Positions 79-21,743 of a stretch of DNA of 64,000 bases are shown one piece after another. This DNA is from Siphonodentalium dalli (lineage: Eukaryota > Mollusca > Scaphopoda > Gadilida > Siphonodentaliidae). The notes beneath the pieces are model-generated. The model had not been told where the DNA came from and did no database searches. It saw only the letters and a list, made by a program, of their open reading frames with translations. The DNA is taken from assembly GCA_032622095.1 (NCBI GenBank), contig CP136062.1, positions 124,001 to 188,000 on the forward strand, written 5' to 3'. The position numbers were made by a program, and so were the translations under genes. The first letter of the stretch is position 1. Every line of letters starts with the position of its first letter.

Positions 79-471
79 ACATATTGAGCGATCATTCAAG
101 CATTTAACATGTCATTTTATTTGTTCATCAGCGATGATTATCTATGTGATTGGGCATGGTATTTAAATGTCATTTTATTTTTTCATCAGCGATGGTTATT
201 CATGACATTTAATGTGTAGTTTAATTTTTCCACAGGGATTGTTATCTATGTGATCGGTTATGGCATTTAATATCTCATTTTATTTTGTCATCAGCGATCG
301 TTATTCATGACTTTTGATGCGTCAATTGTTTTCCTGCAGCCATAATTGTTGCTTTGTGGCTACATATAACATCTCATTTTATGTTTTTTCTTCAACAATG
401 CTCAATTTATGTTTTTTCTTTGGCAATGTTTATTCATGACATTTACCATCTCGTTTTATGTTTTTCCTCAG
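79..471 (+). repeat. Degenerate tandem array carrying copies of the 472 exon's splice acceptor
   Basis: About eight units of 45-60 bp, each ending in a pyrimidine-rich run plus AG (TTGTTCATCAG, TTTTTCATCAG, TTTTTCCACAG, TTTTGTCATCAG, TTTTCCTGCAG) and each starting like the real exon (CGATGATTATCTATGTGAT against CGATGATAATCTTTGTGAA). Units of about 59 and 46 bp alternate. Read from the copied splice edges in the exon's frame, the copies at 131, 190, 235 and 294 stop after about 8-12 codons. Two later units have lost the AG. Confidence 0.75.
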
Positions 472-600
472 CGATGATAATCTTTGTGAATGACCAGGAC
501 AAAACAACAAATTTCTACAATAGTCAGGATTTTAATTACACTGAAACAAACATCATGGCGAAGCGCGTTAACGATTCCATCATCATGGTGCTTAATTCAG
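472..600 (+). CDS. Exon: VWD domain, middle part (mucin-4/mesh-like)
   Basis: This 129-nt exon follows a TTTTTCCTCAG acceptor and ends at CAG|GTAAAG; both edges are phase 1. It encodes about 43 residues beginning MIIFVNDQDK and ending DSIIMVLNSG. The next exon continues at once with FSILMTVG, matching the alternating beta strands in the second half of a VWD domain. There is no Cys, as in the shortened VWD of MUC4/mesh proteins. The frame is open upstream into the intron, but the acceptor and the conserved edge decide the start. The exon edge and its acceptor are repeated several times between positions 80 and 471. Confidence 0.78.
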
Positions 601-1049
601 GTAAAGTTACTATACTGCGTAATTGTGCTGGTACTGGAATCAGTCCATCTGTGTGTCCTTCTGTCCATGGATGCAACTTTGTCCGAGCTTATATTGTTTA
701 ATTGTTCAGTGTATTTTTTTTAAACTTGGCACAGATATTTAATACCATGGGAATTGGTATACTTGGGAACATGACGTCCGTCTGACTTTTTTTAGTGGAG
801 TTATTCCCCTTTTTCAATCTTTTATTCAAATTGAAGAATCTATATCTTCTTGTATTCTATAAGATAGGATACTACTTCAACTGACCATTTATTTTAGGAA
901 GAATAACATTTAAAAAATTAAATTCGTCCCCCCGCTCCCTGACAAGTTGCATGTAAATATAGCAATATATTTATATTGGACTAATATGCACTCCATATTT
1001 GGAAACAATTCTTTTGTTATCTTGGGATAGACGTGTCCTCCTAGAAAAG
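601..1049. other. Intron sequence without recognised feature
   Basis: AT-rich intronic DNA between the 472-600 exon and the 15-bp minisatellite. I see no exon, repeat or RNA signal in it. Confidence 0.6.
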
Positions 1050-1712
1050 ATTGTAGTCCGTAAATATGTAGTCCATTGTAGTTCGTAAATATGTAGTCCG
1101 TCAATATGTAGTCCGTTGTAGTCCGTAAATATGTAGTCCATTGTAGTCCGTAAATATGTAGTCCATTGTAGTTCGTAAATATGTAGTCCGTTGTAGTTCG
1201 TAAATACGTAGTCTGTAAATATGTAGTCCGTTGTAGTTCGTAAATACGTAGTCCATTGTAGTCCGTAAATATATAGTCCATTGTAGTCCGTAAATATGTA
1301 GTCCGTTGTAGTCTGTAAATATGTAGTCCGTAAATATGTAGTCCGTAAATATGTAGTCTGTAAATATGTAGTCTGTAAATATGTAGTCTATAAATATGTA
1401 ATCTCTAAATATGTAGTCTGTAAATATGTAGTCTGTAAATATGTAGTCTGTAAATATGTAGTATATATGTAGTCTGTAAATATGTAGTCTGTAAATATGT
1501 AGTCTGTAAATATGTAGTCTGCAAATATGTAGTCCATTGTAGTCCGTAAATATGTAGTCCGTTGTAGTCCGTAAATATGTAGTCCATTGTAGTCCATAAA
1601 TATGTAGTCTGTAAATATTTAGTCCGTCAATATGTAGTCTGTAAATATGTAGTCTGTATATATGTAGTCTGTAAATATGTAGTCCATTGTAGTCCGTAAA
1701 TATGTAGTCCGT
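1050..1712. repeat. 15-bp minisatellite (GTAGTCYGTAAATAT)
   Basis: About 40 tandem copies of a 15-bp unit GTAGTCCGTAAATAT or GTAGTCTGTAAATAT, mixed with a variant containing GTAGTCCATT. As 15 is a multiple of three, minus-strand frames stay open and give artificial proteins of TDYIF repeats; these are not genes. It lies in the first intron. Confidence 0.95.
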
Positions 1713-1761
1713 CGGCTTTTCAAAGAGACTGGATAGGATAACTTTATTTACAATATACACT

Positions 1762-2030
1762 ACACATACAGTAATGTCCTAAATAATCAACTCCTTAACC
1801 ACAGCGGAATTATGGGTAACTTTTCAGGATTTCAGGATTTGGTCGGAAATATGGCTTGTTGCCATTCATCGGAAAGCTCTCAGTGAGATATCCAAGCCTG
1901 GACATAGTGTGTATAACCCATGGAGAGACCCACATAGGCTGGAGCAGAGGACACTCCGTAGTGCATGCTTCCATCTTGTTGCCATTGATTGGAAAGCTCT
2001 CAGTGAAACTTGGGACAAGTTGTATATTCT
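1762..2030 (+). repeat. Dispersed repeat, copy 1 (starts ACAGTAATGTCCTAAATAAT)
   Basis: The sequence from ACAGTAATGTCCTAAATAAT through GGAAAGCTCTCAGTGAGATA to the AGTGCATGCTTCCATC end recurs at 3165-3360. Parts recur near 8127-8215, 18000-18090, 19574-19675 and 25522-25588. The shared order marks a mobile-element family of a few hundred base pairs. No coding capacity is seen. Confidence 0.7.
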
Positions 2031-2702
2031 ATTTATTACATGATCCAAAACATCGATAAAACATAACTAAATCAACAAATTGGATGTGAAACTAAAATCG
2101 GTTTCTATAAGGCATGCGATGACATTTCACGTAACTATGCGTTCTTTTCCCACGTAAAGAAATAGTCCCAGATAAATAAAATCTCTTTGATGGATTGGAA
2201 AAATATTGGAAGCAATAGTATTTTGAGACATAGCCTATATATTGTAAACAGACTACAAACCGGAAGTCAAAGGACATTATTTCCTGTTATGAAAAGAACG
2301 TTTAATATCACATAATTTGCCCATAAAAGAAGTTTCATAATTACCGGTAAGACACACGTTTAATATCCGCGCGTGCGATGACGTCACGCCGTTCTTCAAA
2401 TGACTTGCGATCGTTGCAGTTTATGATTGTTATTTTCAATGAATAATTCGCGTTGCTTCGCGTTGCTTCGCGTTTATTTAATCATGTGATAAAAGGTGTC
2501 TCACACTCATCCTATTTTATACATAATTTATCAACCTCGTCCACTAAATTCTATTTGCGCCTCGGTAAACCTCGGATCAAATCGAATTTAGTGAACTCGG
2601 TTGATAAATTCTGTATAAAATAGAAACTCATGTGAGATCCTTTATATAATCTTTATAGAATGGGTTTATTGAATGGAATAAGGGTATGATCATGTAATAA
2701 AT
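2031..2702. mobile_element. Non-autonomous DNA element with inverted ends TTTATTACATGATC
   Basis: The segment starts TTTATTACATGATCC and ends GATCATGTAATAAA, an inverted pair. Its interior (CGTTTAATAT, TTATTTCCTG, GACTTCCGGTTT and others) is found in opposite orientation at 7555-7943. A separate palindrome at about 2480-2650 lies inside it near the right end. There is no open frame of note. Class is uncertain; target duplications are not clear. Confidence 0.6.
2480..2650. repeat. Palindromic (hairpin) repeat
   Basis: The left arm with ATTTTATACATAATTTATCA and CTCGTCCACTAAATT is matched in reverse by AATTTAGTGAACTCGG and TGATAAATTCTGTATAAAAT. The loop near 2555-2580 contains CCTCGGTAAACCTCGG. 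A second palindrome with the same plan but different arm sequence is at 7926-8111. Confidence 0.75.
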
Positions 2703-2940
2703 TCCACTATAAACATCTGATTTTCCACAAATCCCAAAAATAACGCCATTATACGCATGACGCATATATTTCTATAGCGCGTATGAATACATAACACACT
2801 AGTTAAAGTGGGTCATACAAAGAGAATTCATCAGAATAATTAAATAATATTGGTGATAAACTCATAAAGTGATCCGTTTTCTTTCTAAATTTAAATTTTT
2901 CTATGACAGATGAGCTTTGACATCACTTTTATGTTTGCAG

Positions 2941-3138
2941 GATTCAGTATTTTGATGACTGTTGGTGTGAAGATGATGACGATTTCTAATGTGGTTCCAG
3001 AGGAACTGAATGGATTAACTACGGGGCTGAGCGGTAACTCCGATGGTGATGCCACAAATGATTTCATAGACCCTGCTGGCAATGAGATACCAGATAACTC
3101 AACAGAACGCGATATATTCTATAGCTTCGGACAAAAAT
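2941..3138 (+). CDS. Exon: C-terminal part of VWD domain
   Basis: A 198-nt exon between TTTATGTTTGCAG and AAAAT|GTAAGT, phase 1 on both sides. Its 66 residues carry the clearest family signature in the window: EELNGLTTGLSGN followed by SDGDATNDFIDPAGNEIPDN and then FYSFGQK. The pattern G-L-x-G-N-x-x-G-D-x-x-x-D-F followed by an 'F-G-x-x-W' end is the standard close of VWD domains. The last base T joins GG of the next exon to make the expected Trp. The upstream ATG at 2910 is intronic and not a start codon. Unlike most of its neighbours, this exon has no copy of its acceptor upstream. Confidence 0.9.
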
Positions 3139-3164
3139 GTAAGTGTCAACAAAGGTACATGCAG

Positions 3165-3400
3165 TAATGCTCTAAATAATCGACTCCTTAACCACAGCAT
3201 AATTATGGGTAACTTTTCATGATTTAGTCGGAAATATGGCTGGTTGCAATTCATCGGAAAGCTCTCACTGAGATGTCCAAGCCTGGATATAGTGTGTCTA
3301 ACCCATAGTGAGCCCCACATAGACCGGAGCAGACGACACTCCGTAGTGCATGCTTCCATCTATGTGAGGCTCCCTGTGGGTTAAACATTAAACTTTATCA
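3165..3400 (+). repeat. Dispersed repeat, copy 2 (related to 1762-2030)
   Basis: Starts GCAGTAATGCTCTAAATAAT and follows copy 1 through GGAAATATGGCTGGTTGCAA, CTCTCACTGAGATGTCC and the ACTCCGTAGTGCATGC block. It then adds a CTATGTGAGGCTCCCTGTGG tail that also appears inverted near 18004. Minus-strand frame 3099-3359 is a by-product of this repeat. Confidence 0.7.
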
Positions 3401-3461
3401 GTGAGGTTTGAGATGGATGTCTAACATTACTGACCAGTCTGGATATAGTGTGTCTGTGATT

Positions 3462-3550
3462 GCAGAACGAGGTCCCCAGAGGGTGAATTTATGGTGGAAA
3501 GATGGTGAATTTAGCATCACTAAATTCACCCTAAGGGAACCTCATTCTGC
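3462..3550. repeat. Palindromic GCAGAATGAGG repeat, copy a
   Basis: Inverted arms GCAGAACGAGGTCCCCAGAG and CCTAAGGGAACCTCATTCTG around a short centre. This is one of at least seven copies of the family in the window. Confidence 0.75.
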
Positions 3551-3598
3551 TGTGGTCTCAACTCTGCTATTAGCCTGCAAATAGCGTGTCTGTCATTT

Positions 3599-4118
3599 GC
3601 AGAATGAGGTCCCCAGAGGGTGAATTTACACTCTTATAACTAATGTGTAGAAACGATTACACATCAAATGTGTAAACCCGGTGAATACACATAGCAATGT
3701 GTAGTTTTACATACAAATACATTGACCAAGGGCCGTTCTACACATAATGTGTATGTTTTGTTACACACAATTGTGTAAGAACGTAGAACTGAACTTACAT
3801 TCTTGTCTACGATATATATGTGTAAGAATCTACACAAAATGTGTATGGGATATGTGTTGATTTTATGCACAACAGTGTGTATAAATGTGTTGAAATTGAC
3901 CCATTTATTGTGTAGAAATTGTTACACAATTTGTGTACGTACATAAAACTACACATATACTACACAAATATGTTTAAGATCAAAAATGAATAATGATTGT
4001 GTAGCAGGGCTCCACATTGTTTGTAGAAAACATACACATTAGTTATAAGAGTGTAGTGACACTATCCCGCATAGCGTGCTAGAATAACTAAATTCACCCT
4101 CTGGGAACCTCATTCTGC
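3599..4118. repeat. Palindromic GCAGAATGAGG repeat, copy b, split by a MITE
   Basis: The left arm (GCAGAATGAGGTCCCCAGAG, then GGTGAATTTA) ends at 3628. The centre and right arm (GTGACACTATCCCGCATAG, CTAAATTCACCCTCTGGGAA) resume at 4056. The interruption is the element at 3629-4053. Removing the insert and one TA gives a sequence like the unbroken copy at 8280-8372. Confidence 0.85.
3629..4053. mobile_element. MITE with 21-bp perfect terminal inverted repeats and TA target duplication
   Basis: 425 bp beginning CACTCTTATAACTAATGTG and ending with the exact inverse, flanked by TA on both sides (3627-3628 and 4054-4055). The interior is dense in ACACA/TGTGT motifs and would fold on itself. A TA duplication with inverted ends is the mark of Tc1/mariner-type insertion, and the lack of a transposase frame makes it non-autonomous. 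The empty site is visible in related repeats in this window (8280-8372). Confidence 0.88.
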
Positions 4119-4290
4119 TTAGGCCGTCAACTGATATGGCAGACCTAGGATCAGATTGAAGTTCCCCAGTTCCTCAATTATGAATTTTATCTTCTGCAAA
4201 TTAGGGGATACAGGAACTTCCTAGAAGGGAAATGTAACTAAAACAATCTTAATTTGATACTATAGATACTTCCCAGAAGATGAGGCCTAA

Positions 4291-4383
4291 GCAGAATGAG
4301 GTCCACAGAGGGTGAATCGAGTGATGCTAGCCCGTTATGCGGGATAGCGTCACTAAATTCACCCTCTGGAGACCTCATTATGC
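4291..4383. repeat. Palindromic GCAGAATGAGG repeat, copy c
   Basis: Arms GCAGAATGAGGTCCACAGAG and CCCTCTGGAGACCTCATTAT around a GATGCTAGCCC centre. On its left is a block (about 4190-4290) containing GGAACTTCCTAGAAGGGAAA that recurs at 8505-8580. The family is therefore part of a larger composite repeat. Confidence 0.75.
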
Positions 4384-5012
4384 AAATGACAGACACGCTA
4401 TTTGCAGGCTTCTCCTCAGTTGAAGTTCGAAGTTCCCCAGTTGAAGTTCGAAGTTCACCCATTAGTCACCTCGATTATGTAATTTATTTTCTGCAAATTA
4501 TGGGCCATAAAAACTGAACAGAAGGGAATAAGTAACTAAAACATGTTAATCTGAGACCGGGCGAGCAGCAACAAACATATATGCATGTACCATAGCCGTT
4601 TATTGATGGATTCCGACAATTTTTGAGTTAATTGTCATGTGCGTCAACTGGACACTGACAATCGGATCTGCCGAGACTTTCTAACCAGAGTTACCTGAGT
4701 TATGGTCCTTAGTTTGTCTATTTTTAGCTATTTTATGACTGCTAGCGCGAAAACATGAACATATGTCAACCGATTCCATACATATTGGAACAATATCTTG
4801 ATTGGGTTAAAAACTAAATAATGTCCAATTTTTTGTACCTGAAGTATGGCCCTTAGTTCTGGATTATGCTTCTTTAGTTCGTTCATTTTTAGTGATTCTT
4901 GGTCGACCAGATTCTCTCTTATAGACAAAAAGCTAGATCAGACCAATATTTGATGTGCAACCCTTGTTTGTTAATGCTGTCATGACGGGAGCTTCCTGAA
5001 ATTTGGTGAAAA
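4384..5012. other. Intron sequence without recognised gene
   Basis: Begins with repeat-related sequence (GTTCGAAGTTCCCCAGTTGA duplicates near 4425-4455), then ordinary AT-rich intron. No exon with in-phase splice sites was found. Confidence 0.5.
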
Positions 5013-6716
5013 CCCTGTACCAACGCATTCTCTTATATATAAAACCCTGTGCCAATGCATTTTCTTATATATAAAACCCTGTGCCAACACATACTCTTAT
5101 ATATAAAACCATGTGCCAACACATTCTCTTATATATAACACCCTGTGCCAACACATTCTCTTATATATAAAACCACGTGCCAATGTTTCTCTTATATATA
5201 AAACCATGTGCCAATGCATTATCTTATATACAAAACCCTGTGCCAGCACATTCTCTTATATATATAAAACCCTGTGCCAGCACATTCAATTATATATATA
5301 CAACCCTGTGCCAATGCTTTCTCTTATATATAAAACCATGTGCCAATGCATTCTCTTATATATAAAACCCTGTGCCAACACCTTCTCTTATATACAAAAC
5401 GCTCTGCCAATGCTTTCTCTTATATATATATAAAACCATGTGCCAATGCATTCTCGTATATATAAAACCCTGTGCCAACACATTCTCTTATATACAAACC
5501 CTGTGCCAACACATTATCTTATATATAAAACCCTGTGCCAACACATTCTCTTATATATAAAACTCTGTGCCAATGCATTATCTTATATATAAACCCTGTG
5601 CCAACACATTCTCTTATACATAAACCCTGTGCCAACACATTCTCTTATATATAAAACCCTGTGCCAATGCTTTGTCTTATATATATAAAACCATGTGCCA
5701 ATGCATTATCTTATATATAAAACCCTGTACCAACACATTCTCTTATATTTAAAACCCTGTGCTAACACATTCTCTTATATATAAAACCCTGTGCCAACAC
5801 ATTCTATTATATACAAACCCTGTGCCAACACCTTCTCTTATATATAAAACCATGTGCCAACACATTCTCTTATATTTAAAACACTGTGCCAACACATTCT
5901 CTTATATATAAACCATGTGCCAACACATTCTCTTATATACAAAACCCTCTGCCAACACATTCTATTATATATAAACCCTGTGCCAATGCATTCTCTTATA
6001 AATAAAACCCTGTGCATTCTCTTATATTTAAAAGCCTGTGCCAACACTGTCTCTTATATATAAACCCTGTGCCAATGCATTCTCTTATAGACAAAAACCC
6101 TGTGCCAACACATTCTCTTATATATAACACCCTGTGCCTACACATTCTCTTATATATAAACCCTGTGTCAATGCATTCTCTTATATATAAAACCCTGTGC
6201 CAAAACATTTTCTTATATATATTAAACCCTGTGCCAATGCATTTTCTTGTGTATAAACCCTGTGCCAACACATTCTCTTATATATATAAAACCCTGTGCC
6301 AACACATTCTCTTATGTTTAAAACCCTGTACCAACATATTCTCTTACATATATAAAACCATTTGCCAATGCATTATCTTATATATAAAACCATTTGCCAA
6401 CACCTTCTCTTATATATAAACCCTGTGCCAAAACATTATCTTATATATAACACACTGTGTCAACACATTCTCCTATATATAAAGCCCTGTACCAACACAT
6501 TCTCTTATATATATGAAACCCTGTCCCAATGCATTCTCCTATATATAAAACCATGTGCCAACACATTCTCTTATATATATAAAACCCTGTGCCAACACCT
6601 TCTCTTATATATAAAATCCTGTGCTAATGCATTCTCTTATATGTGAAACCCTGTGACAACACATTATCTTATAAATAAAACCCTGTGCCAACAAGTTATC
6701 TTATATATATAAAACC
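5013..6716. repeat. 32-bp minisatellite (CCTGTGCCAACACATTCTCT...)
   Basis: About 53 copies of a 32-bp unit with CCCTGTGCCAACACATTCTC followed by TTATATATAAAA; CAACACA and CAATGCA variants alternate. Frames on both strands (such as repeats of KPCANTFSYI) come from the repeat. The unit matches one arm of the hairpin that follows at 6744-6811. Confidence 0.95.
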
Positions 6717-6743
6717 CTAAAAATATTTGCATTGACCTTATAA

Positions 6744-6825
6744 GCCAGTGCATTATGTTATATATACGAGGCTCCCAAAGAAGACTCGCATATATATGAG
6801 AATGCACTGGCACAGGGTTATTAAT
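6744..6825. repeat. Hairpin repeat next to the 32-bp minisatellite
   Basis: Arms GCCAGTGCATTATGTTATAT and ATATATGAGAATGCACTGGC around GAGGCTCCCAAAGAAGACTC, followed by CACAGGGTT. A second copy is at about 17850-17960 without a tandem array beside it. Confidence 0.75.
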
Positions 6826-7512: not shown

Positions 7513-7554
7513 TAATGAATATTCTGAATGAAACAGGAGTATCTATAATAACAA

Positions 7555-8372: not shown

Positions 8373-9075
8373 TAAAGCCCTCAAATGCTATGGTAGATCT
8401 AGGATCAGATTGAAGTTCCCCAGTTGAAGTTGATGATGTTCACCGGCAACTTCACCCATTGGGCACCTCAATTATGAATTTAACTTCTGCAAATTAGGGG
8501 ATATAGAAACTTCCTAGAAGGGAAATGTAACTGAAACAATGTTAATTTGATACTATAGATACTTTACAGAAGATGAGACCTAAGCAGAATGAAGTCTCCA
8601 GAGGGTGAATTTGGTGATGCTAGCAGGCTTGGCCATACTAAATGTATAAACACCAACTTTTCAACCTTTACTTGGCTAGTAAAATGTTTCAGTTGTCATC
8701 ATTAGAAAAGGCCGACTCATAACGGCTGATGTGCAACCTCTCATCGCCCATCAGCAACAGCCGTTATCACCACGACGATTTGCCTCACATCCACAATGCA
8801 TGCTGATCTACAAAGCTTTGTTTCCAATTAATGCACAGCACATGCTATAAAAGCTGTCTGTTTTTCAGTACTGTAATTTGCAGAATGAGGTCCCCAGAGG
8901 GTAAATTTAGTGACGCAGTGGGCTAGTGTCACCAAATTAATTCTCTGGGGACCTCATTCTGCTTAGGCCCCATCTTCTGGAAAGTATCCATAGTCTCAAA
9001 TTAACATTGTTTTAGTTTCTTTTTCCCCTTCTGTTCAGTTTCTATATACCCTAATTTGCAGAAGATAAAATACAT
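8373..9075. repeat. Intron with repeat remnants, including palindromic copy at 8880-8962
   Basis: 8505-8636 repeats the GGGAAATGTAACTGAAACAA block plus half a palindrome. 8880-8962 is another copy (GCAGAATGAGGTCCCCAGAG ... CTCTGGGGACCTCATTCTGC). 8640-8880 holds nothing I recognise. Confidence 0.6.
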
Positions 9076-9082
9076 AATCGAG

Positions 9083-9975
9083 GTCTTCCAGGGTTGGTGA
9101 GCTCCGATGATACAGTATTCAGGTATCACACTCCCGTAGGGTGCCCCACACAGATTTGAGCAGACGACAGTCATCATTACAATGTTCTCTCTTCCAGGGT
9201 TGGTGAGCGCCTCTGATACAGTATTCAGGCATCACACTCCCGTAGGGTGCCCCACACAGATTCGAGCAGACGACAGTCATCAGTACATTGTTCTCTCTTC
9301 CAGGGTTGGTGAGCGCCTCTGATACAGTATTCAGGTATCACACTCCCGTAGGGTGCCCCACACGGAGTTTAGCAGACGACAGTCATCAGTACATTGTTCT
9401 CTCTTCCAGGGTTGGTGAGCGCCTCTGATACAGTATTCAGGTATCACACTCCAGTAGGGTGCCCCACACGGATTTTAGCAGACGACAGTCATCATTACAT
9501 TGTTCTCTCTTCCAGGGTTGGTGAGCTCCGATGATACAGTATTCAGGTATCACACTCCCGTAGGGTGCCCCACACAGATTTGAGCAGACGACAGTCATCA
9601 TTACATTGTTCTCTCTTCCAGGGTTGGTGAGCTCCGATGATACAGTATTCAGGTATCACACTCCCGTAGGGTGCCCCACACAGATTTGAGCAGACGACAG
9701 TCATCATCACATTGTTCTCTCTTCCAGGGTTGGTGAGCGCCTCTGATACAGTATTCAGGTATCACACTCCCGTAGGGTGCCCCACACAGATTTGAGCAGA
9801 CGACAGTCATCATTACATTGTTCTCTCTTCCAGGGTTGGTGAGCGCCTCTGATACAGTATTCAGGTATCACACTCCCGTAGGGTGCCCCACACAGATTTG
9901 AGCAGACGACAGTCATCATTACATTGTTCTCTCTTCCAGGGTTGGTGAGCTCCGATGATACAGTATTCAGGTATC
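9083..9975 (+). repeat. 106-bp tandem array: nine copies of a splice acceptor plus exon start
   Basis: Copies of TCTTCCAGGGTTGGTGAG begin at 9083, 9190, 9296, 9402, 9508, 9614, 9720, 9826 and 9932, a period of 106-107 bp. Each holds the pyrimidine tract, the AG and the first 36 or so coding bases (through ACAGTATTCAGG). The first eight then go to CACACTCCCGTAGGGTGCC and hit TGA about 23 codons in. The ninth enters the true exon at 9940. Two versions of the coding start alternate (AGCTCCGATGAT and AGCGCCTCTGAT). Confidence 0.93.
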
Positions 9976-10185
9976 CCAATGGGAAAACACATGCCGAATT
10001 CACAAACACAAATTTCGAGCCAATCTTCCTTGACGAGGTTGATCCAACAACGCTTAACAACGCCAAGACAATCTGCGGAGATAACAATGAGTGCATACTC
10101 GATTACATCGCGACTGGCGATCAAACCGTAGCTGAGGAATCAAAGACGACGGGTGACAAAACTACTCAAGAAGATGCTATTCTCA
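9940..10185 (+). CDS. Exon: post-VWD segment of mucin-4/mesh-like protein
   Basis: A 246-nt exon after TTCTCTCTTCCAG, ending CTCA|GTAAG, phase 1 on both sides. With the T of the previous exon it opens W-LVSSDDTVFRYPNGK, continues with FEPIFLDEVDP, and has a Cys pair in AKTICGDNNECILDYIATGD. The motif 'F-x-Y-x-x-G ... P-x-F-L-D-E ... A-x-x-x-C-G-x-x-x-x-C-x-x-D-x-x-A-T' is typical of the stretch directly after the VWD domain in MUC4, SUSD2 and coral mucin-like proteins. The first 36 or so bases and the acceptor are repeated eight times upstream in a 106-bp tandem array, where each copy runs into a stop codon. Minus-strand frames across this region are shadows of the repeat. Confidence 0.92.
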
Positions 10186-10880
10186 GTAAGTTCCAACCGA
10201 AGCTGGTCCTATACGACAAGTGACAATACTACATGTATATGACATATGACGAGACTACTCAAGAGATGATATATTCTCTGTTAATTCTGACTGAAATTGC
10301 ATGGTCCTGTGCGAGATAAGGCCAATTGGATTAAATTATAAGATTATCATTACCTCTTCACATTATCGTTACTAAGACGACAGGCAACTCAAGAAGACGT
10401 AAGATTGTAATACGGCTGAAATGATTAATCCACTAATTAACAATTAATAAGATATTTGATTAATCGTCCCATTTCTTAGAACACAAACAATAAATTACAA
10501 CATAATATTTACCATTTTATTAAATTTTCGTCAATATACTACCGTAAAAACTGTCAAGTTGACACACAATTCTTTGTTATGGACGAGTATGGTGAGAAAT
10601 CGCAAGATATTCCTGATATATATGTCTTAATTTAAAGTTAATTCACATTAAAGGGATACTGTACCCAAAATGCTCTTATTGGGTTCTTTTGTCTATGAGT
10701 TGTAGAATAAGGTAACCAGATAACCAGATTTCCATTATTTGAAAGTCTGGTGAGTACGAAGTAATATTAGCAGATGAGCCGGAATGCGAAAATACCAATT
10801 GTCGTTGTTGAGTAATTTTTGAACAATTTTCAAGCAAATGTATCAAATATACTCATCGAGTCATCTATTATATTATATTT
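10186..10880. other. Intron sequence without recognised feature
   Basis: Starts with the donor GTAAGT-like site of the exon ending at 10185. The remainder is AT-rich, and 10885-10917 begins a TGTC/TCTG simple run. No exon found. Confidence 0.5.
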
Positions 10881-10919
10881 TGGAAGATCTGTCTGTCTGT
10901 CTATGTGTCTGTCTGTTTC

Positions 10920-11605: not shown

Positions 11606-12090
11606 TTGTATATATATAGTCAGTGGCTTGAGTTTACGCCCGGTATCAACATAATTTTTACACGATCATGTGAGTCAAATACACTTTCCATGAACTATTT
11701 TGATGACATCTTGTACACATAAATTCGTAATTTAATGTATGACTCCAGTCATAAATTAAATTTATATCAAATTATTAACTTTGATTTTAAGATAACCTAT
11801 TAACCTGAACGTTTACAGAATACATCTTCAACTCAAATTACTTAGTTTTCTCTTAGATCGTTGTTATCACCGTACCCTCAACAAGCCGTGTAATGTATTT
11901 ATCCCCGGTCTTTATTAACAAGATATTCCCACAGCCATAAAGCGCGGAAACGAGCCACGAACAGTAACTCTATTTTATTAGACTGCTCATACGATGAATA
12001 GTAGCAAGATAACATCACACCTGGAATCAACGTGGCTTTGAAAGATATACATTCGACTTTCAAACTTTTGCCAGGTCATATAATTTATAC
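11606..12090. other. Intron sequence without recognised feature
   Basis: AT-rich, no repeat, exon or RNA signal that I can support. Confidence 0.5.
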
Positions 12091-12245
12091 TAGGGGCATA
12101 CGAGATTGTTATGACCTTGTAAAATCTGTCTTCTCTATATAGCGACGACAATTTTTGTGGTGTAATATCAGTTTTACACGGGGCATACGAGATTGTTATG
12201 ACTTTTGTAAAATCTGTCTTCTTTATATAGAGACGACAATTTTTG
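12091..12245 (+). repeat. 87-bp tandem repeat, left part of array split by a long element
   Basis: Two copies of GGGGCATACGAGATTGTTAT ... TATATAGCGACGACAATTTT. The array is cut at CAATTTTTG (12237-12245) and resumes in the same orientation at 16726. Confidence 0.88.
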
Positions 12246-13438
12246 GGGTTTCCCTTTTTACCGGATCCCGGATTTCGACCCGGATTTAGGTGTCTTTTTA
12301 CTGGATTTCGACCCGGATTCGGGTATGAATTTCATGCTTGTTTTATCACACATTTAACCCATTAAAAGCCGTTTCTGGCACGCGGAAACTGGTTAGGAGG
12401 TGAGATTAAACCAATATAGGGCTGTCGTGCTCATTCAACCCGATTAATCGTATTTAAAGGTACATATCGTGCCCGGATCAGCATACTTTTTTTTTCTTCA
12501 TATAGACACGGCGGTTGGATTGATTTTACGTGATCATGATGGCATTTAAGGGAACACACCATGTCCGGATCCGAATTAATTATCTCGTAATTATTGATCA
12601 TATTTAAAGGTAGATATCATGTCCGGATCCGGTTTTTTTCTCTCTCTTTTTTTTCCATATAAATTATCGTCTTTTTGATATATTAAATGTCACGTGGAAC
12701 AAAGTTATAAGTTGATTTTGAGATGTTATACTAGGCTGTTGGATTGATTTCACGGAATGATTATCGCATTTGAAGGTACACACCATGTGCGGAACCGAAT
12801 TAATTTCCACGTATTTACTGATAATATTTAAAGGTACAGATTATGCCCGGATCCGGATTTTTCTTCTTATAAAGTAATGCTTATTTAATACAATAAATGT
12901 AAACTGAGTCGCGTGGAACTAGGTTATAGATGTTGATGTTTAGATCAGATCATTCCCGGATTCGGATACGAATAGTTTTTTTCTATTTCATATAAATAGT
13001 CAAGTATTTAGCACATTAAATGGCAGCTGAGCCACGCGGAACTCAGTTTATTTGGAAACGGTGAACATGGCGCTTGGATTGATTTCACGCGAGAATGAGC
13101 CCATTTACAGACAAACTTTATGCCCGGATCTGGATCCGGATTTTATGTGTCTTTTTCTAATTTTGATCCGAACCCTGATCTCAATTTTATGTTTATTATA
13201 ACCCATGTTTAACACATTAACAGACATTTCAGACCCGCGAAAACATATATATTCTTTATTAGCCTCCATCGAGGAGAGTATTGTATGTTCATATACGGAT
13301 ATTATACAAATAATGTACAGTCTTACACATAAATGATAAATATATACATATTGTGGTATGGTCAACAAGTGTCACTGTACTGAAGCCTCGTGCACTCATG
13401 GAGTTAATCAGCTATTTACAGTCACGGTACAGCTACAT

Positions 13439-14102
13439 TCAGTTACCGGTAACTAACTTGCAGGCATGCATTAGGAATGTCGATGTGTCCACAATAAAAT
13501 TGCTATACACCGAAAACAATTCCGAGTCTGCGCAAGTGTTCTCATTCCCTAAAATCAGCGAGATAAATTGATTATCAGTTAGATTGCTCAATAAGAGGTA
13601 AATGTTCACTCCATATTTGTTCACAATTGTCCCAATATATGTTCCGAAAGTGCAGCAGCGCTATCGATTGGCATGCGAACAGAACGTGTACCAGTTCATT
13701 TGGATAAGTTTGTCCACAAGAACGACACAGTTTGTTGTTGATGTATGTTGTTTTGTTCAACAACAGCGCAAGGTGTTTGAGCTGGACCTCGTACTGTCTA
13801 TTGGCAGAGAGTATCTGCCAGATTGTCCATGGTTTTCTGGGGTTCTGGTGGCACGTATAGAATGTCGACAAATCATGATCTTGTGATACAGATGTTTGCC
13901 AGTGATTCGTATACAGGTCCGACACCCGCGACTTTACTAAAAACTTCCACTGTGCCTTCTCTGGGAACGATCCAGTGTCTAGAAATTCTAGAAGGTAATG
14001 TTTTAGATCGTATTTTTCTAGAATAGGAAATATTTCAGATATATCCCGTTGCAGCCAGCTACAGTTTATACAGTGATTATCTAGTTTAAAGGTACAGACC
14101 AT
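13439..14102 (-). pseudogene. LINE (non-LTR retrotransposon) ORF2 C-terminal fragment, frameshifted
   Basis: A minus-strand frame of 175 codons (14102-13575) contains CRSCGQTYPNELVHVLFAC, a C-x2-C-x9-H-x4-C zinc knuckle like that at the C-terminus of non-LTR retrotransposon reverse transcriptases. It is preceded by a Trp/Tyr-rich linker (FLVKSRVSDLYTNHWQTS). The similar-looking continuation (LTDNQFISLILGNENT) is in another frame at 13624-13439, so a frameshift lies near 13580-13620. The reverse transcriptase core is absent. The first 25 or so codons belong to the host foldback arm, not to the LINE. It is a dead 5'-truncated copy or fragment. Confidence 0.65.
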
Positions 14103-15324
14103 GCCCGGATCCGGTTTAAAAAAAATTCTCCATATAAATTAACGCCTATTTAATATATTAAATGTCAGCTGAGTTAAGAGGAAGTTAGAAGTTGATTTTG
14201 AGAGGTTAGACCCGGCTGTTGGATTTATTTTACGGAAGGATGATCGCATTTAAAGGTGAATGCCATGCACGGATCCGAATTAATTATCGCGTATTTATTA
14301 ATCATTTTTAAAGGTACAGATTATGCCCGGATCCCGATTGTTCTCCTTTCACTTATAAATTAACTCCTATTTAATACATTAAATGCCAGCGGAGTCACGT
14401 GGAACCAGGTTTTAGAATTAGTACGTTTAAAGACACACTTTATTTCCCTATTTGAATCCGGATTTGATGTGTCTCTTTTTGCTGATTTCGACCCTAACCG
14501 GGTTTGCATTTTATGTTTATTATATCCCACATTTAACACATTGAAAGACATTTCAGACACACGGAAACATGGCACAGGTTGGGTTTGAACAGAACAGAAA
14601 ATATAAACTGTCCATATACCGCATGGTTGTTTAATAAATATACAACAGATATCTATCAATCAATTACTGAAACGGTACTATTAGTACAAAATCCGGATCC
14701 GGGCATAATCTGTACCTTTAAATTTTATCAGTAAATACGAGGTAATTAATTCGGATCCGCACATGGTGTGTACCTTTAAATGCGATAATCCTTCCGTGAA
14801 ATAAATCCAAAAGCCGAGTCTAACTTTTCAAAATCAACTTATATAGTATTTTGTACTAATAGTACCATTTCAGTAATTGATAGATATCTGTTGTATATTT
14901 ATTAAACAACCATGCGGTATATGGACAGTTTATATTTTCTATTCTGTTCAAACCCAACCTGTGCCATGTTTCCGCGTGTCTGAAATGTCTTTCAATGTGT
15001 TAAATGTGGGATATAATAAACATCAAATGCAAACCCGGTTAGGGTCGAAATCAGCAAAAAGAGACTCATCAAGTCCGGATTCAATGTACCTTTAAAAATG
15101 ATTAATAAATACGCGATAATTAATTCGGATCCGTGCATGGCATGCACCTTTAAATGCGATCATCCTTCCGTGAAATAAATTCAACAGCCGGGTCTAACCT
15201 CTCAAAATCAACTTCTAACTTCCTCTTAACTCAGCTGACATTTAATATATTAAATAGGCGTTAATTTATATGGGTTTTTTTTTTTAAACCGGATCCGGGC
15301 ATGGTCTGTACCGTTAAACTAGAT

Positions 15325-15490
15325 AATCACTGTATAAACTGTAGCTGGCTGCAACGGGATAGATATGCTAGCAGTGTTTTTATAACGATTCGGGCGGCCA
15401 GACTATAAAATCACTGTATAAACAATAGCGGGCTGCAACGGGATGGATATGCTATCCGTGTTTTTATAACGATTCGGGCATCGTGACATA
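15325..15490 (+). repeat. Tandem duplication of about 80 bp in right arm of foldback element
   Basis: AATCACTGTATAAACTGTAG and AATCACTGTATAAACAATAG each lead to GGCTGCAACGGGATRGATAT and TTTTTATAACGATTCGGGC. The left arm holds only one copy of the first part, next to the LINE fragment. Confidence 0.75.
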
Positions 15491-16725
15491 AAACGCTTAA
15501 TACAAGTCGTACATCTATCTCACTTAAACCGGCTTAAATATCGAATTTACAATAGCAATACTACTAGTATCACAAATATAATCGTTTATAATCGAACTAA
15601 AACAATAAACCATTTAAACTGCACCAGGTTTTTTTGTGGGCTGGAGAACAAAAAATCTTCACAAAAGCAAGTCAATTTATTTCAATCCCAATGATATTAC
15701 TGTTAAATGCAACCTGTGCCATGTTTTCGCGGGTCTGAAATGTCTTTTAATGTGTTAAACATGGGTTATAATAAACATAAAATTGAGATCAGGGTTCGGG
15801 TCGAAATTAGAAAAGGCACATAAAATCCGGATCCAGATCCGGGCATAAAGTTTGTCTGTAAATGGGCTCATTCTCGCGTGAAATCAATCCAAGCGCCATG
15901 TTCACCGTTTCCAAATAAACTGAGTTCCGCGTGGCTCAGCTGCCATTTAATGTATTAAATACTTGACTATTTATATGAAATAGAAAAGAACTATTCGTAT
16001 CCGAATCCGGGAATGATCTGATCTAAACATCAACATCTATAACCTAGTTCCACGCGACTCAGTTTACATTTATTGTATTAAATAAGCATTACTTTATAAG
16101 AAGAAAAATCCGGATCCGGGCATAATCTGTACCTTTAAATATTATCAGTAAATACGTGGAAATTAAATCGGTTCCGCACATGGTGTGTACCTTTAAATGC
16201 GATAATCATTCCGTGAAATCAATCTAGTATAACGTCTCAAAATCAACTTATAACTTTGTTCCACGTGACATTTAATATATCAAAAAGACGATAATTTATA
16301 TGGAAAAAAAGAGAGAGAACAAAACCGGATCCGGACATGATATCTACCTTTAATTATGATCAATAATTACGAGATAATTAATTCGGATCCGGACATGGTG
16401 TGTTCCCTTAAATGCCATCATGATAACGTAAAATCAATCAAACCGCCGTGTCTATATGAAAAAATAAGAAGTATGCTGATCCGGGCACGATATGTACCTT
16501 TAAATACGATTAATCGGGTTGAATGAGCACGACAGCACTATATTGGTTTAATCTCACCTCCTAACCAGTTTCCGCGTGTCAGAAACGGCTTTCAATGGGT
16601 AAAATGTGTGATAAAACAAGCATGAAATTCATACCCGAATCCGGGTCGAAATCCAGTAAAAAGACACATAAATCCGGGTCGAAATCCGGGATCCGGGATC
16701 CGAAATCCGGTAAAAAGACACACCC

Positions 16726-17455
16726 CAATTTTTGCTGTGTAATATCAGTTTTACACGGGGCATACGAGATTGTTATGACCATTGTAAAATCTGTCTTCTC
16801 TATATATAGCGACGACAATTTTTACCGGGTAATATCAGTTTTACGAGGAGCATACGAGATTGTTATGACCCTTGTAAAATCTGTCTTCTTTATATAGCGA
16901 CGACAATTTTTGCGGTGTAATATCAGTTTTACAAGGGGCATACGAGATTGTTATGACCCGTGTAAAATATGTTTTTCTATATAGCGACGACAATTTTTGC
17001 CGGGTAATATCAGTTTTACAAGGGGCATACGAGATTGTTATGACCCTTGTAAAAATCTGTCTTCTCTATATAGCGACGACAATTTTTGCCGGGTAATATC
17101 AGTTTTACAGGGGGGCATACGAGATTGTTATGACCAGTGTAAAATATGTTTTCTCTATATAGCGACGACAATTTTTGCCGGGTAATATCAGTTTTACAAG
17201 GGGCATACGAGATTGTTATGACCCTTGTAAAATCTGTCTTCTCTATATAGCGACGACAATTTTTGCCGGGTAATATCAGTTTTACCAGGGGAATACGAGA
17301 TTGTTATGACCCGTGTAAAATCTGTCTTCTCTATATAGCGACGACAATTTTTGCCGGGTAATATCAGTTTTACAAGGGGCATACGAGATTGTTATGACCC
17401 GTGTAAAATCTGTCTTATCTATATAGCGACGACAATTTTTTGCGGGGTAATACGA
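16726..17455 (+). repeat. 87-bp tandem repeat, right part of split array
   Basis: About eight copies of GGGGCATACGAGATTGTTAT / GACCCTTGTAAAATCTGTCT / TATATAGCGACGACAATTTT / GCCGGGTAATATCAGTTTTA, period 87-89 bp. Frames on both strands are by-products. Confidence 0.93.
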
Positions 17456-17849
17456 AATAAGTGTTTCCTGTTTAGTTAACATATATTGAACAAGAACACC
17501 GGGATACGGCGTGGTATGGCCCTAGAAGTACAATGGTGCCTAAGAAGGCTTACAATTATACAGAGGGGATAACTGTAAATTCAAGTGGTAATTGGGCCAA
17601 TTTTTGTGATATGAAAGTGATAATACGGCCATATTTCATTGAACAACATGTTGATAAATAACACGTTTTTGGGGAATTTTATACCATTAGTTGACAGCGG
17701 TTAGCATTAATCGATTTTGATAACAAAAGTATATTTTAAAGAAATTTTGTTGTTTTTGTAACTTGGTGATATGGGGACCTTCTGATTGGATTGAGTACCT
17801 TCAGGGCCTTTTATGTGCTGCCTCATTGCACAGATATACACTGCTTGAC
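17456..17849. other. Intron sequence without recognised feature
   Basis: AT-rich DNA. No exon, repeat or RNA signal that I can support. Confidence 0.5.
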
Positions 17850-18092
17850 ATAATTGTGCATTCTCTTATATAGATGCAAGGCTCCCATTTATAAGACTCA
17901 CATTTATAAGAGTATTGCACTGACACAGGGTCTTTAATGCTGCATCAGTGCAGCTCCCGTCACGAAAGTGATAATAACTGAGGCAATATATAAAGTTTAA
18001 TGTTTAACCCACAGGGAGCCTCACATAGATAGAAGGATGCACTATAGAGTGTCATCTGCTAAAGTATATGTGGTGTTCTCTATGTGTTAAAC
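17850..18092. repeat. Hairpin repeat and dispersed-repeat remnant
   Basis: 17850-17960 matches the hairpin at 6744-6825 (GTGCATTCTCTTATATAGAT ... AGTATTGCACTGACACAGGG). 18000-18090 matches the TTTAACCCACAGGGAGCCTC / ATGTGTTAAA family seen at 3340-3390 and 8127-8215. Confidence 0.7.
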
Positions 18093-18103
18093 TGTCAGGA
18101 AAG

Positions 18104-18185
18104 GGTTAAATCATTTCAGTAACTCAATTCCAAATGTTTTCTCGGAGACCGTAGTTCTACATGCTACGATCGGTGATGAGAGTAC
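18104..18185 (+). repeat. Upstream near-copy of the 18202 exon's acceptor and 5' part
   Basis: GGTTAAATCATTTCAG at 18104 and 18186 mark two copies, 82 bp apart. The first holds TAACTCAATTCCAAATGTTT, TCTCGGAGACCGTAGTTCTA and CATGCTACGATCGG, then GATGAGAGTACGG. It lacks one G after the AG, so splicing here would shift the frame and reach a TAG within about 11 codons. Confidence 0.9.
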
Positions 18186-18201
18186 GGTTAAATCATTTCA
18201 G

Positions 18202-18412
18202 GTAACTCGATTCCAAATGTTTTCTCGGAGACCGTAGTCCTACATGCTACGATCGGCGTTGAAAGTACGGTTACTTTCGTAGCTAACGACACTGATGCTG
18301 CCGACAATGTGACCTTACATATCGTACAACAACCCGCGACAGGTTTCACCTTTGACCTTTCAACTCTGGTCGCCACGTGGACGCCTGCTGATACCACTGC
18401 CGTATCTATACA
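18202..18412 (+). CDS. Exon: cadherin/Ig-like beta module
   Basis: A 211-nt exon after AATCATTTCAG, ending TATACA|GTAAGT. It enters in phase 1 and leaves in phase 2, the only phase change in the gene. It encodes a beta-rich module: NSIPNVFSETVVLHATIGVE, then TVTFVANDTDAADNVTLHIV, then GFTFDLSTLVATWTPADTTA. Alternating hydrophobic residues, a 'N-D-x-D' turn and the closing 'W-T-P' resemble the cadherin/HYR-like module that follows the VWD region in invertebrate mucin-like proteins. A near-copy of the first 80 or so bases with its acceptor lies immediately upstream (about 18104-18185). It lacks one G at the splice edge and would shift the frame. Confidence 0.88.
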
Positions 18413-18609
18413 GTAAGTCTGAGTTATCTCCCCTGACTTATGACAGGGGCGCCACATGAACGCTTGCTGATATTGAATGGTGGGTGACACTCCATGTGTT
18501 AATGGCATTACCTTTCATATACAAATTCACATTTCCTTCATATATAACTAAGGGGCGTAACTCTATCTCCACATTTCATTTGAAACCTTTTGCAGGAGCC
18601 CAATCTTTT
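18413..18609. other. Start of intron after the 18202-18412 exon
   Basis: Begins with the donor GTAAGT. No further feature recognised before the 68-bp array. Confidence 0.5.
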
Positions 18610-19018
18610 AATGTGTGATTACAAATTTCCTGTATGACATCACTCAGAAATCCCACCTGAAACGAAAGAACATACAGAATGAAACATGTTAACTCTGGTG
18701 TGTGACGTCGCTCAGAAAGCCCACCTGACACGAAACCACATACAGAATGAAACATGGTAACTCTGGTGTGTGACGTCGCTCAGAAAGCCCACCTAAAACG
18801 AAACGACATACAGAATTAAACATGTTAACTGTGGTGTGTGACGTCGCTCAGAAAGCCCACCTGACACGAAACCACATACAGAATGAAACATGGTAACTCT
18901 GGTGTGTGACGTCGCTCAGAAAGCCCACCTGAAACGAAACAACATACAGAATGAAACATGTTAACTCTGGTGTGTGACGTCGCTCAGAAAGCCCACCTAA
19001 AACGAAACGACATACATA
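18610..19018 (+). repeat. 68-bp tandem array, left part
   Basis: Units of about 68 bp with GAATGAAACATGTTAACTCT, GGTGTGTGACGTCGCTCAGA and AAGCCCACCTGAAACGAAAC (starts at 18677, 18745, 18813 and on). The array is interrupted at 19019 and resumes at 19376. Confidence 0.9.
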
Positions 19019-19123
19019 CACAGAACGACACGATGTGTAAATGGGTTTGTCTCGAGTTCTATCCTTCCGCGACAGCACGAGCGCCGTATCGACAAACCCA
19101 TTTACACATCGTGTCGTTCTGTG
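19019..19123. repeat. Hairpin with 33-bp perfect arms
   Basis: The arm at 19019-19051 (starts CACAGAACGACACGATGTG) is exactly inverted at 19091-19123, around a 39-bp loop containing TTCTATCCTTCCGCGACAGC. The loop and right arm recur at about 20985-21053 next to the second MITE, where the left arm has diverged. Confidence 0.9.
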
Positions 19124-19127
19124 TTTA

Positions 19128-19372
19128 TTACACGCTTCGCATCCTAGAATCCGTGCATTAAAAATACAGGATTAGAAGGTTTATTTAGGCTCATACAGGG
19201 CGTGTTTGTCATTTGTGGTGATTCTTTTATTTAAATAGTTCCATTTTCGTGGTTGAGGCGAACGTCATGTACGTCATTTTACGTCAACGAGAGGCATATG
19301 GAACGTACGTTGCATACGGATTTGTGAATATGGAACGGCAATAACACTATACTTCTAGGAACAAGCGTGTAA
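19128..19372 (+). mobile_element. MITE, copy 1 (ends TTACACGCTT)
   Basis: 245 bp with inverted ends TTACACGCTT and AAGCGTGTAA, extended to ATTACACGCTT and AAGCGTGTAAT. It shares its interior, inverted, with the element at 20720-20959. It has no coding frame. Together with the hairpin before it, it splits the 68-bp array. Confidence 0.8.
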
Positions 19373-19375
19373 TAA

Positions 19376-19545
19376 AGAATGAAACATGTTAACTCTGGTG
19401 TGTGACGTCGCTCAGAAAGCCCACCTGACACGAAACCACATACAGAATGAAACATGGTAACTCTGGTGTGAGACGTCGCTCAGAAATCCCACCTGAAACG
19501 AAACAACATACAGAATGAAACATGTTAACTGTGGTGTGTGATGTC
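19376..19545 (+). repeat. 68-bp tandem array, right part
   Basis: Resumes with GAATGAAACATGTTAACTCT and GTGTGTGACGTCGCTCAGAA for about 2.5 units and ends in GTGTGTGATGTCGCTTGC. Confidence 0.88.
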
Positions 19546-19573
19546 GCTTGCAAACACACAATATACTGGGAAA

Positions 19574-19680
19574 GTAATGCCCTAAGTAATCGACTCCTTA
19601 ATCACAGCATTCCTTTTCATGATTTAGTCGGAAATATGGCTTGTTGCCATTCATCGGAATGCTCTCAGTGAACAATTCAT
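19574..19680 (+). repeat. Dispersed repeat fragment (AAGTAATGCCCTAAGTAATC)
   Basis: AGTAATGCCCTAAGTAATCG, CTTTTCATGATTTAGTCGG and TTGCCATTCATCGGAATGCT match the family at 1762-2030 and 3165-3400. It has an internal deletion around AATTATGGGTAA. Confidence 0.7.
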
Positions 19681-19810
19681 GAGCAAATGTGTTGTCACTG
19701 GGAGCAGTCACACGAAGAATGGCCTGTTTTATTTGTCCAATTGCGATGAATTACCCGACACATATTGCCACCTAATGCGCACGAGTGTTTAGTTCAGTTA
19801 TATGTTGTTT

Positions 19811-20007
19811 AAAGATATGTGTGTATATGTAATTTAAGATGTGTGTGTATATGTAAGATGTGTGTATATGTAAGATGTGTGTGTATATGTAATTAAGATG
19901 TGTGTGTATATGTAATTAAGAGGTGTGTGTATATGTAGTTAAGATGTGTGTGTATATGTAATTAAGATTTGTGTGTATATGTAATTAAGATGTGTGTGTA
20001 TATGTAT
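19811..20007 (+). repeat. 21-bp tandem repeat (TGTGTGTATATGTAATTAAGA)
   Basis: About nine units, some shortened to TGTGTGTATATGTAAGA. Confidence 0.9.
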
Positions 20008-20111
20008 TTGCGGTGAATTACCCGACAAATATTTGTCCTTCTTCATTAATGGCACTTTGCCAATGGGTGAAACATATTATGAATCGTTCTATTTGTGGTG
20101 TAAATATAGAA

Positions 20112-20178
20112 GACCTATGACTTCTCTGCATGTGACCTATGACTTCTCTGCATGTGACCTATGAGTTCTCTGCATGTG
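20112..20178 (+). repeat. 22-bp tandem repeat, three copies
   Basis: GACCTATGACTTCTCTGCATG begins at 20112, 20134 and 20156. The third copy reads GAGTTCTC. Confidence 0.9.
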
Positions 20179-20213
20179 AGGTCTAGATCTGTTGGTCACA
20201 GTCGTTAGATGAT

Positions 20214-20310
20214 TCATGTGATCATCAAAGTTAAGCAAATCGAGCTCGGTTAGTTCTTGGATGGGTGACCGGCTTGGGAGTCCCTGTTTTGCCAACTTTT
20301 GGTGCGACTC
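20214..20310 (+). pseudogene. 5S-rRNA-derived sequence (pseudogene or 5S-headed SINE)
   Basis: AAAGTTAAGCAAATCGAGC then CGGTTAGTTCTTGGATGGGT and GACCGGCTTGGGAGTCCC match the 3' two thirds of eukaryotic 5S rRNA. That part includes the internal promoter boxes (AGTTAAGCAA, and GGTTAGTACTTGGATGGGTGAC with one change). The 5' third is not recognisable and the usual end is altered (CCCTGTTTTGCC), followed by no T-run. It is not a working 5S gene. A 5S-derived SINE is possible, but a second copy would be needed to show that. Confidence 0.8.
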
Positions 20311-20480
20311 CCGCAATTCTCTCTCTCATTCTGTGACACTGTATTACTATGCTTTTACATGCATGGAAAATATTATGACGAGATCACTTCTTGTGGACAT
20401 GCATGCTTTCCTTGTCACCTAATCCAATCAGAGGGGTGGTTGCATGGTTGGTTGCCTGTTTCAGACAGACTAATCTAATC

Positions 20481-20575
20481 AAGATAATCCATGGGTTGTA
20501 ATCTGCCTGCCATCTGGTCTGGTTGTAAGATAATCCCTGTGTTATGATATGCCTGCCATCTGGTCTGGTTGTAAG
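20481..20575 (+). repeat. 46-bp tandem duplication
   Basis: AAGATAATCC begins at 20481 and 20527. Both copies hold GCCTGCCATCTGGTCTGGTT. Confidence 0.9.
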
Positions 20576-20719
20576 GATAGATCCATAATATGATTTATTG
20601 GGCCAATTTGTGAAACATGTTTACATTGAATCTTATCGAGTGTCAAAAGTATCAATAATGATGTTTTATCTAGCTTGTTTAGCAGGTAGGCACAGTTGGA
20701 TACAGCTAAACGTTAATTA

Positions 20720-20959
20720 TTACACGCTTGTTCCTATAAGTACGGTGTTATTGCTGTTCCATATTTACAAATCTGAATGGAACGTACTTGTTGGTGTAAA
20801 ATGAGTCAAATGACATACATGACGTTTGTCTCAACCATGAAACTGGAACTATTTAAATAAAAGAATCATCACACATGACAAACACACCCTGTATGAGCCT
20901 AAAGAAACCTTCTAATTCTGTATTTTTAATGCACGGATTCTAGGACGCGAAGTGTGTAA
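20720..20959 (-). mobile_element. MITE, copy 2 (inverse of 19128-19372)
   Basis: 240 bp with ends TTACACGCTTG and AAGTGTGTAA. Its interior (GTTCCTATAAGTACGGTGTT, GACATACATGACGTTTG, AATTCTGTATTTTTAATGCA) is the reverse complement of copy 1. It is followed by the hairpin-related sequence up to 21055, just before the exon at 21103. Confidence 0.8.
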
Positions 20960-21102
20960 TAAACACAGAACGGCAAGCGCCTCTCGTTCTATCCTTCCGC
21001 GACAGCACTCGTGCCGGATCGACAAACCTATTTACACATCGTGTCATTCTGTGTATTTATTATTTACATTTGTTTGTTAATTTTCGAAATTGTGTTTTTC
21101 AG

Positions 21103-21284
21103 AATTGGAGCAAGTGACAGTTCTGGTGCTTCAGCATTGCCTGCCCTGGTCCCGATCGTCCTATGTAACAAATGTACTAATGGACAGGGAACATGTGACT
21201 TCGAGCAGTCTCGAATCGCCGATAATGAGACAGTCGCTCTATACTTCCGACTCGCATTCTGTGTATGTGATGTCGGTTGGGAAG
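21103..21284 (+). CDS. Exon: end of beta module plus Cys-rich EGF-like segment
   Basis: A 182-nt exon after TTGTGTTTTTCAG, ending GGAAG|GTAAGT; entry phase 2, exit phase 1. It starts QIGASDSSGASALPALVPIV, the last strand of the beta module, and then a Cys-rich part: LCNKCTNGQGTCDFEQS and later FCVCDVGWEG. The spacing C-x2-C-x6-C ... C-x-C-x4-W-x-G and the closing 'GWEG' are EGF-like. The following exon continues with DDCETDING, so the two exons together make the EGF region. The 109-aa frame beginning at 21090 is a shadow in another frame. Confidence 0.9.
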
Positions 21285-21581
21285 GTAAGTAGATATAGGG
21301 AACATGGGAAGGTGATCGAGGCTATGATATACAAGCAGCAGCGGGTTAGCTTAATTAAATTCACCTTCTCATTCTTTTTGGTATTTTCAAATCTCTGGAA
21401 AGTATATCTTATTGTTTAGAAACTTCTTTCGAAAATATCTGTTTCTTTTTTAGTTTAGTTCCTCATTTTGCAAATGAACATGTAGCACCATATTTTGAGC
21501 CCTGATACCGATATTAACGGGTGTGTTGGAATGGGGCTCTTTATGTAGGCTAATGTGATTAGATTTTATTTATATTTGTAG

Positions 21582-21743
21582 GTGACGACTGTGAGACTGA
21601 TATTAACGGTTGTGCTGGAAACCCATGCTTAGATCTACAGACATGTACAGACAAAACTCCCACTGAGCAGAACACGACAGACCTCACTCACCAATGTTCA
21701 GCATGTCCGACAGGTTACACGCAGCAGCAGTCTAAATGCACAG
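21582..21743 (+). CDS. Exon: EGF-like module (last recognised exon)
   Basis: A 162-nt exon after TATATTTGTAG, ending CACAG|GTCAGT; phase 1 on both sides. It encodes GDDCETDINGCAGNPCLDLQ, then TCTDKTPTEQNTTDLTHQC, then SACPTGYTQQQSKCT. Six Cys and the 'D-I-N-G-C ... N-P-C ... T-C-T-D ... C-S-A-C-P-x-G-Y' order fit an EGF or calcium-binding-EGF-like module with a long inter-Cys insert. It has no stop codon, so the gene continues, but I find no further in-phase exon before the satellites. The 22 bases around GATATTAACGG have a 2-mismatch copy 89 bp upstream (21510-21531). Confidence 0.88.

Follow-up and report, generated by a model that had tools for sequence, protein, structure and literature searches.

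The first 22 kb of the window, which is the whole stretch of 64,000 nucleotides analysed, hold part of an animal gene of the MUC4-like VWD/C8-3/EGF type (Table 1). Its six exons all have AG/GT borders and, spliced together, encode 375 residues in a single reading frame, and the introns between them measure 2.3, 6.8, 8.0, 2.7 and 0.3 kb. Since exon 1 starts mid-codon, the gene extends past the left edge of the window. The Pfam comparison identified C8-3_MUC4 (E 3.4e-9), a VWD match fell just under the cut-off (22.1 versus 22.9 bits), and the last exons resemble the EGF repeats of Notch. With the spliced gene as a protein query, none of 1327 candidates matched at E 0.001. The base composition is 38% G+C, with a CpG ratio of 0.80.

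Table 1. Exons of the gene and the copies found at or near their borders (positions in the window).
Feature	Position	Strand	Basis
Array of degenerate copies of the exon-1 acceptor, with a higher-order unit of about 104 bp	80..492	+	Self-comparison (locus 100-492), shuffles
Exon 1, first exon seen	472..600	+	AG/GT borders; in frame with exons 2-6
Exon 2, without border copies	2941..3138	+	AG/GT borders, in frame
106-bp array, eight upstream copies and exon 3's own edge (first 36 exon bases)	9084..9978	+	
Exon 3, holds the C8-3_MUC4 match	9940..10185	+	AG/GT borders, in frame; Pfam
Exon-3 donor (10154-10216) and degenerate downstream copy (10247-10314)	10154..10314	+	0/500 shuffles
Duplicated exon-4 acceptor, unit 82/83 bp, GGTTA at break points	18104..18273	+	
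Exon 4	18202..18412	+	AG/GT borders, in frame
26-bp copy (4 mismatches) of the exon-4 end 18368-18393, past the donor, not border-spanning	18447..18472	+	
Exon 5, without border copies	21103..21284	+	AG/GT borders, in frame
Copy of exon-6 bases 21592-21620 (29 bp, 4 mismatches), without border	21503..21531	+	
Exon 6, EGF	21582..21743	+	AG/GT borders, in frame; Notch EGF matches

For each splice border, a window around it (60 bases at the acceptors) was compared with 500 dinucleotide-shuffled versions of the flank. At the acceptor of exon 3, the upstream copies score 120, and no shuffle scores as high. The repeat unit of 106 bp consists of 36 exon bases joined to 70 intron bases, and its intron sequence partly resembles positions 3302-3341 (80% over 40 bp). 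The exon parts of the upstream copies are 89-100% identical to the exon copy, and the intron parts of copies 2-8 are 94-100% identical to it; of the intron part of the first copy, just the final 8 bases are retained. Copy 6 equals the exon copy across all 106 bases. In addition, the coding sequence differs at three closely spaced positions (12, 15 and 16 of the exon), which divide the nine copies into two types. The TCCGAT type (WLVSSDDTVFRY) comprises copies 1, 5 and 6 and the edge of exon 3 itself, and the GCCTCT type (WLVSASDTVFR, followed by Y, or by H in copy 2) comprises copies 2, 3, 4, 7 and 8. This pattern suggests that the exon edge may join in the turnover of the array, exon and array changing together. 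The shared variants could also come from an array that grew from a polymorphic exon, and recent growth alone could be sufficient for the high identity and the shared variant blocks. It is conceivable, although rather doubtful, that the intronic array stores coding variants and that its turnover swaps the first codons of the exon between the WLVSSDD and WLVSASD types; if so, a piece of an extracellular protein would evolve in concert with the adjoining minisatellite.

A dispersed sequence lies directly before this array (8950-9083, compared up to the first base of the array) and has inverted copies, 85-87% identical, at 4172-4303, 8466-8596 and 4469-4557. Each unit of the array also carries a donor-like GTGAGC five bases past the acceptor (CAG|GGTTG|GTGAGC; window 9937-9950), and the start of exon 4 reads CAG|GTAA; judging from these motifs, some copies could be recursive or micro-exon splice sites. 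On the other side of exon 3, the downstream copy of the donor spans the border at 10185, with a border-window score of 37 that is reached by none of the 500 shuffles.

At exon 1, seven upstream segments lie in 129-468, together with a fragment at 80-128, and the last copy of the array reaches into the exon. The acceptor window gives a local score of 55 against the upstream copies (0/500 shuffles as high), and CAG is retained in five of the seven segments. The segment lengths alternate (58/46, 59/45) and the best self-match of the array is at an offset of 105, which together indicate a higher-order unit of about 104 bp. Either the exon was copied into the array, or the exon start lies within an older array. 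At exon 4 there is one upstream copy, 93% identical over 82/83 bp (acceptor-window score 80; 0/500 shuffles as high), and the 5 bp GGTTA are common to both break points, as a microhomology-mediated duplication would give. On the donor side of the same exon, the outward search with the whole exon is equalled by one of 500 shuffles, and the donor border window stays at chance level (207/500).

The copy near exon 6 comes from inside the exon, at an offset of 89; the leftward whole-exon search is equalled by 0/500 shuffles and the border window by 4/500. The copy may possibly derive from duplication of an EGF exon, to judge from PDTDINGCVGM against CETDINGCAGN, but the match covers just 29 bp.

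In total, copies that span the border are present at 4 of 12 borders, namely at three of six acceptors (exons 1, 3 and 4) and at one of six donors (exon 3). The acceptor windows of exons 2 and 5 have no copy (67 and 500 of 500 shuffles as high), and the donor windows of exons 1, 2, 5 and 6 have no comparable one (383, 459, 393 and 23 of 500). The whole-exon searches to the left of exon 2 (9/500; a match of 19 bp, 347 bp distant) and exon 5 (25/500), and those to the right of exons 1, 2, 5 and 6 (495, 267, 93 and 14 of 500), were not counted as copies. The sequence-only reading of this DNA had described repeated exon starts at four of the six exons. Those at 472, 9940 and 18202 withstand the shuffles (0/500 each), and in all three the copied segment crosses the intron-exon border, as had been stated. 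The alignments confirm the eight copies and the period of 106 bp at 9940 and the single copy at 18202; the roughly eight degenerate copies at 472 are real, but the period of 45-60 bp given for them is replaced by the higher-order unit. The fourth, a partial 22-bp edge copy with 2 mismatches at 21582, exists as the longer exon-internal match in Table 1, without the border. The unrelated sequences, differing periods and differing degrees of decay agree with the view that these are independent events of one kind.

The region around these exons is itself rich in duplications. An ungapped self-comparison of the first 26 kb of the window (offsets 15-1000) gave 23 local duplication loci, which make up 37% of this sequence; two block-shuffled sequences gave 1 and 0 segments. 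By a gapped measure, a left-sided copy within 1 kb is found at 31% of sampled positions (score at least 35) or 24% (at least 50). Because the gene was chosen for having border copies, all P values for a border excess are post hoc. Three of six acceptors are within chance (P 0.28 and 0.15 for the two scores). Within this window, the outcome that the earlier reading had set against its own claim, an equal frequency at random positions, is thus partly seen. When a repeat-free 'exon body' is required, however, the left-copy rate falls to 13% or 9% and the same count gives P 0.031 or 0.011, which is a mild excess. Among the donors, one of six has a copy at the lower score and none at the higher, where 12% or 8% would be the background rate.

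Four right ends of the duplication loci lie in exons, against 0.9-1.0 expected (P 0.007-0.012), or three without exon 6 (P 0.057), and no left end does so in the ungapped map. Ends of either kind number four (P 0.10), or five when the gapped exon-3 donor copy, missed by the ungapped map, is included (P 0.03). The ungapped map itself covers two of six acceptors, against 2.2 by random placement (P 0.72) or 1.2 with repeat-free exon tails (P 0.34); we think that it scores just two since the exon-1 copies need gaps. A mild excess is possible, but these counts do not demonstrate a strong preference for acceptors.

Repeats of the same anatomy have been published as 'mirages' in the amphioxus globins BflGb6 and BflGb9, Adh3, PGBD5 and TnC, where they are described as minisatellite-like tandem duplications of the intron end and exon edge, on either side of exons, with several copies of units of 10 to about 160 bp (PMC3087553, PMC3902484). 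Both exon boundaries can be duplicated, likewise in Adh3; the units within an array are reported to undergo concerted evolution; and the Adh3 data and globin RT-PCR are said to suggest that regular splicing is undisturbed (PMC3087553). In PGBD5 the units are imperfect and of 60 and 108 bp, and troponin C is mentioned too (PMC3902484). The earlier reading had stated that no described mechanism was known; the origin of mirages is called unclear in print as well (PMC3087553), but the phenomenon itself has been published.

The copies described here are like mirages in that they are tandem and span the border, and in that the authentic exon stays intact beside them. They differ in that one gene, known from sequence only, has three acceptor-spanning duplications and one old donor copy. 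The original mirage paper is reportedly that of Canestro et al. 2002 (doi 10.1093/nar/gkf386). Two other kinds of border repeat are related. In human genes within segmental duplications, internal tandem repeats occur where exons meet introns (De Grassi and Ciccarelli 2009, PMC2812944); these are also minisatellites at such borders, but their units average 30 bp, and they alter the annotated exon or intron and change the gene structure, whereas here the authentic exon is intact. In intron gain by tandem genomic duplication, splice signals are likewise copied, a duplicated exonic AG/GT giving a new intron of the size of the duplication (PMC2891723; also the topic of PMC4974935), whereas here long introns bear copies of their own border. 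The lengths of the present introns do not equal the periods of about 82-106 bp, as this process would require.

The border copies are real, and they give a kind of repeat that has been described before one more example, in a gene laden with repeats. These reports describe the phenomenon in only a few lancelet genes, to which a gene with several duplications across its boundaries is now added. A search of open-licence papers returned no report of mirages outside lancelets, which is weak evidence that there is none. In a lancelet the present copies would be nothing new, and elsewhere they would extend this kind of repeat to another animal. It has been proposed that such copies could supply the material for new introns (PMC3087553), and the exon-3 array suggests that an exon edge may turn over jointly with intron repeats.

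Based on the results presented above, the border copies are quite probably mirage-type minisatellites, that is, ordinary local duplications that were later amplified and were tolerated where the exon stayed whole. Local tandem duplications would arise throughout the region by break repair, template switching or slippage, and some would happen to begin in an intron and end within an exon. Such a duplication would leave one complete exon with its own acceptor adjoining and may be tolerated, whereas those that disrupt the body of the exon would be removed. Unequal exchange or slippage might then enlarge the array and homogenise its units, the last of which would be the edge of the exon itself, as the shared variants at exon 3 suggest. 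The spliceosome presumably stays with the exon-proximal border: 14 upstream copies have kept AG (five at exon 1, eight at exon 3 and one at exon 4), and by computation 13 of these acceptors lead to a stop ahead of the true exon (for exon 1, with the preceding base undefined); the one at 340 is open and in frame. This reading is supported by the share of the 26 kb that lies in local duplications, by the copies beyond the donors of exons 3 and 4, by GGTTA at the exon-4 break points, by the partial likeness of the intron sequence in the exon-3 unit to 3302-3341 and the inverted relatives of the array's left flank in the window, by the TCCGAT variant that the exon-3 edge shares with copies 1, 5 and 6, the last of them identical, by the stops that follow 13 of the 14 acceptors, and by the published amphioxus anatomy.

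The excess of right ends in exons and the mild acceptor excess count against this reading and leave room for a real border preference. A process that favours 3' splice borders, such as pyrimidine-tract slippage or splicing-linked breaks, is nevertheless an improbable source of the duplications. It would fit the three acceptors against one donor, the four right ends against no left ends in the ungapped map and the repeat-free exon-body test; the donor-side copies, the chance-level count against all positions of the region and the selection of the gene for its border copies speak against it. The acceptor specificity of the earlier reading is not supported, as the exon-3 donor copy exists and 3/6 versus 1/6 is a meaninglessly small difference.

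Selection for decoy acceptors, which had also been put forward, or for alternative ones, with the effect of tuning expression by poison splicing, appears very unlikely. All eight exon-3 copies have kept AG, as have five of the seven degenerate ones at exon 1, and premature stops from 13 of 14 acceptors are what poison sites would give. However, among exon-3 copies 2-9 the variable columns are alike in the exon part (4/36) and the intron part (8/70), which gives no sign of coding constraint on the decoy copies; at 80% identity about five of seven AGs would survive, by our own estimate; and the amphioxus data mentioned above are said to point to undisturbed splicing. An assembly artefact, in which repeats were collapsed or expanded or haplotypes merged, is likewise very unlikely: PGBD5 copy numbers do differ between two lancelet assembly versions (PMC3902484), but copies here differ by variants of their own, and misassembly would not give the old, degenerate copies seen at exon 1 and the exon-3 donor.

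Other repeats are found in the window. By reading and in the repeat analysis, the stretches at 12.3-14.6 kb and 14.7-16.7 kb resemble a large inverted repeat around a LINE-like fragment (12300-16720), and 88-bp units flank it on both sides (12075-12249 and 16726-17452). The LINE-like ORF as a protein query matched none of 43 candidates at E 0.001, and DNA patterns from the dispersed repeats had 0 matches in genome contigs and 0 in viral contigs. A scan of the 64 kb at Rfam gathering scores gave no family; a 5S-rRNA-like stretch at 20191-20297 reaches 25.6 bits, below the gathering score of 38, and it might represent the head of a SINE derived from 5S rRNA. Two satellite arrays, one of a 61-bp unit in about 393 copies with 102-bp blocks within it (27241-51357) and one of a 28-bp unit in about 449 copies (51458-64000), fill almost all of 27241-64000.
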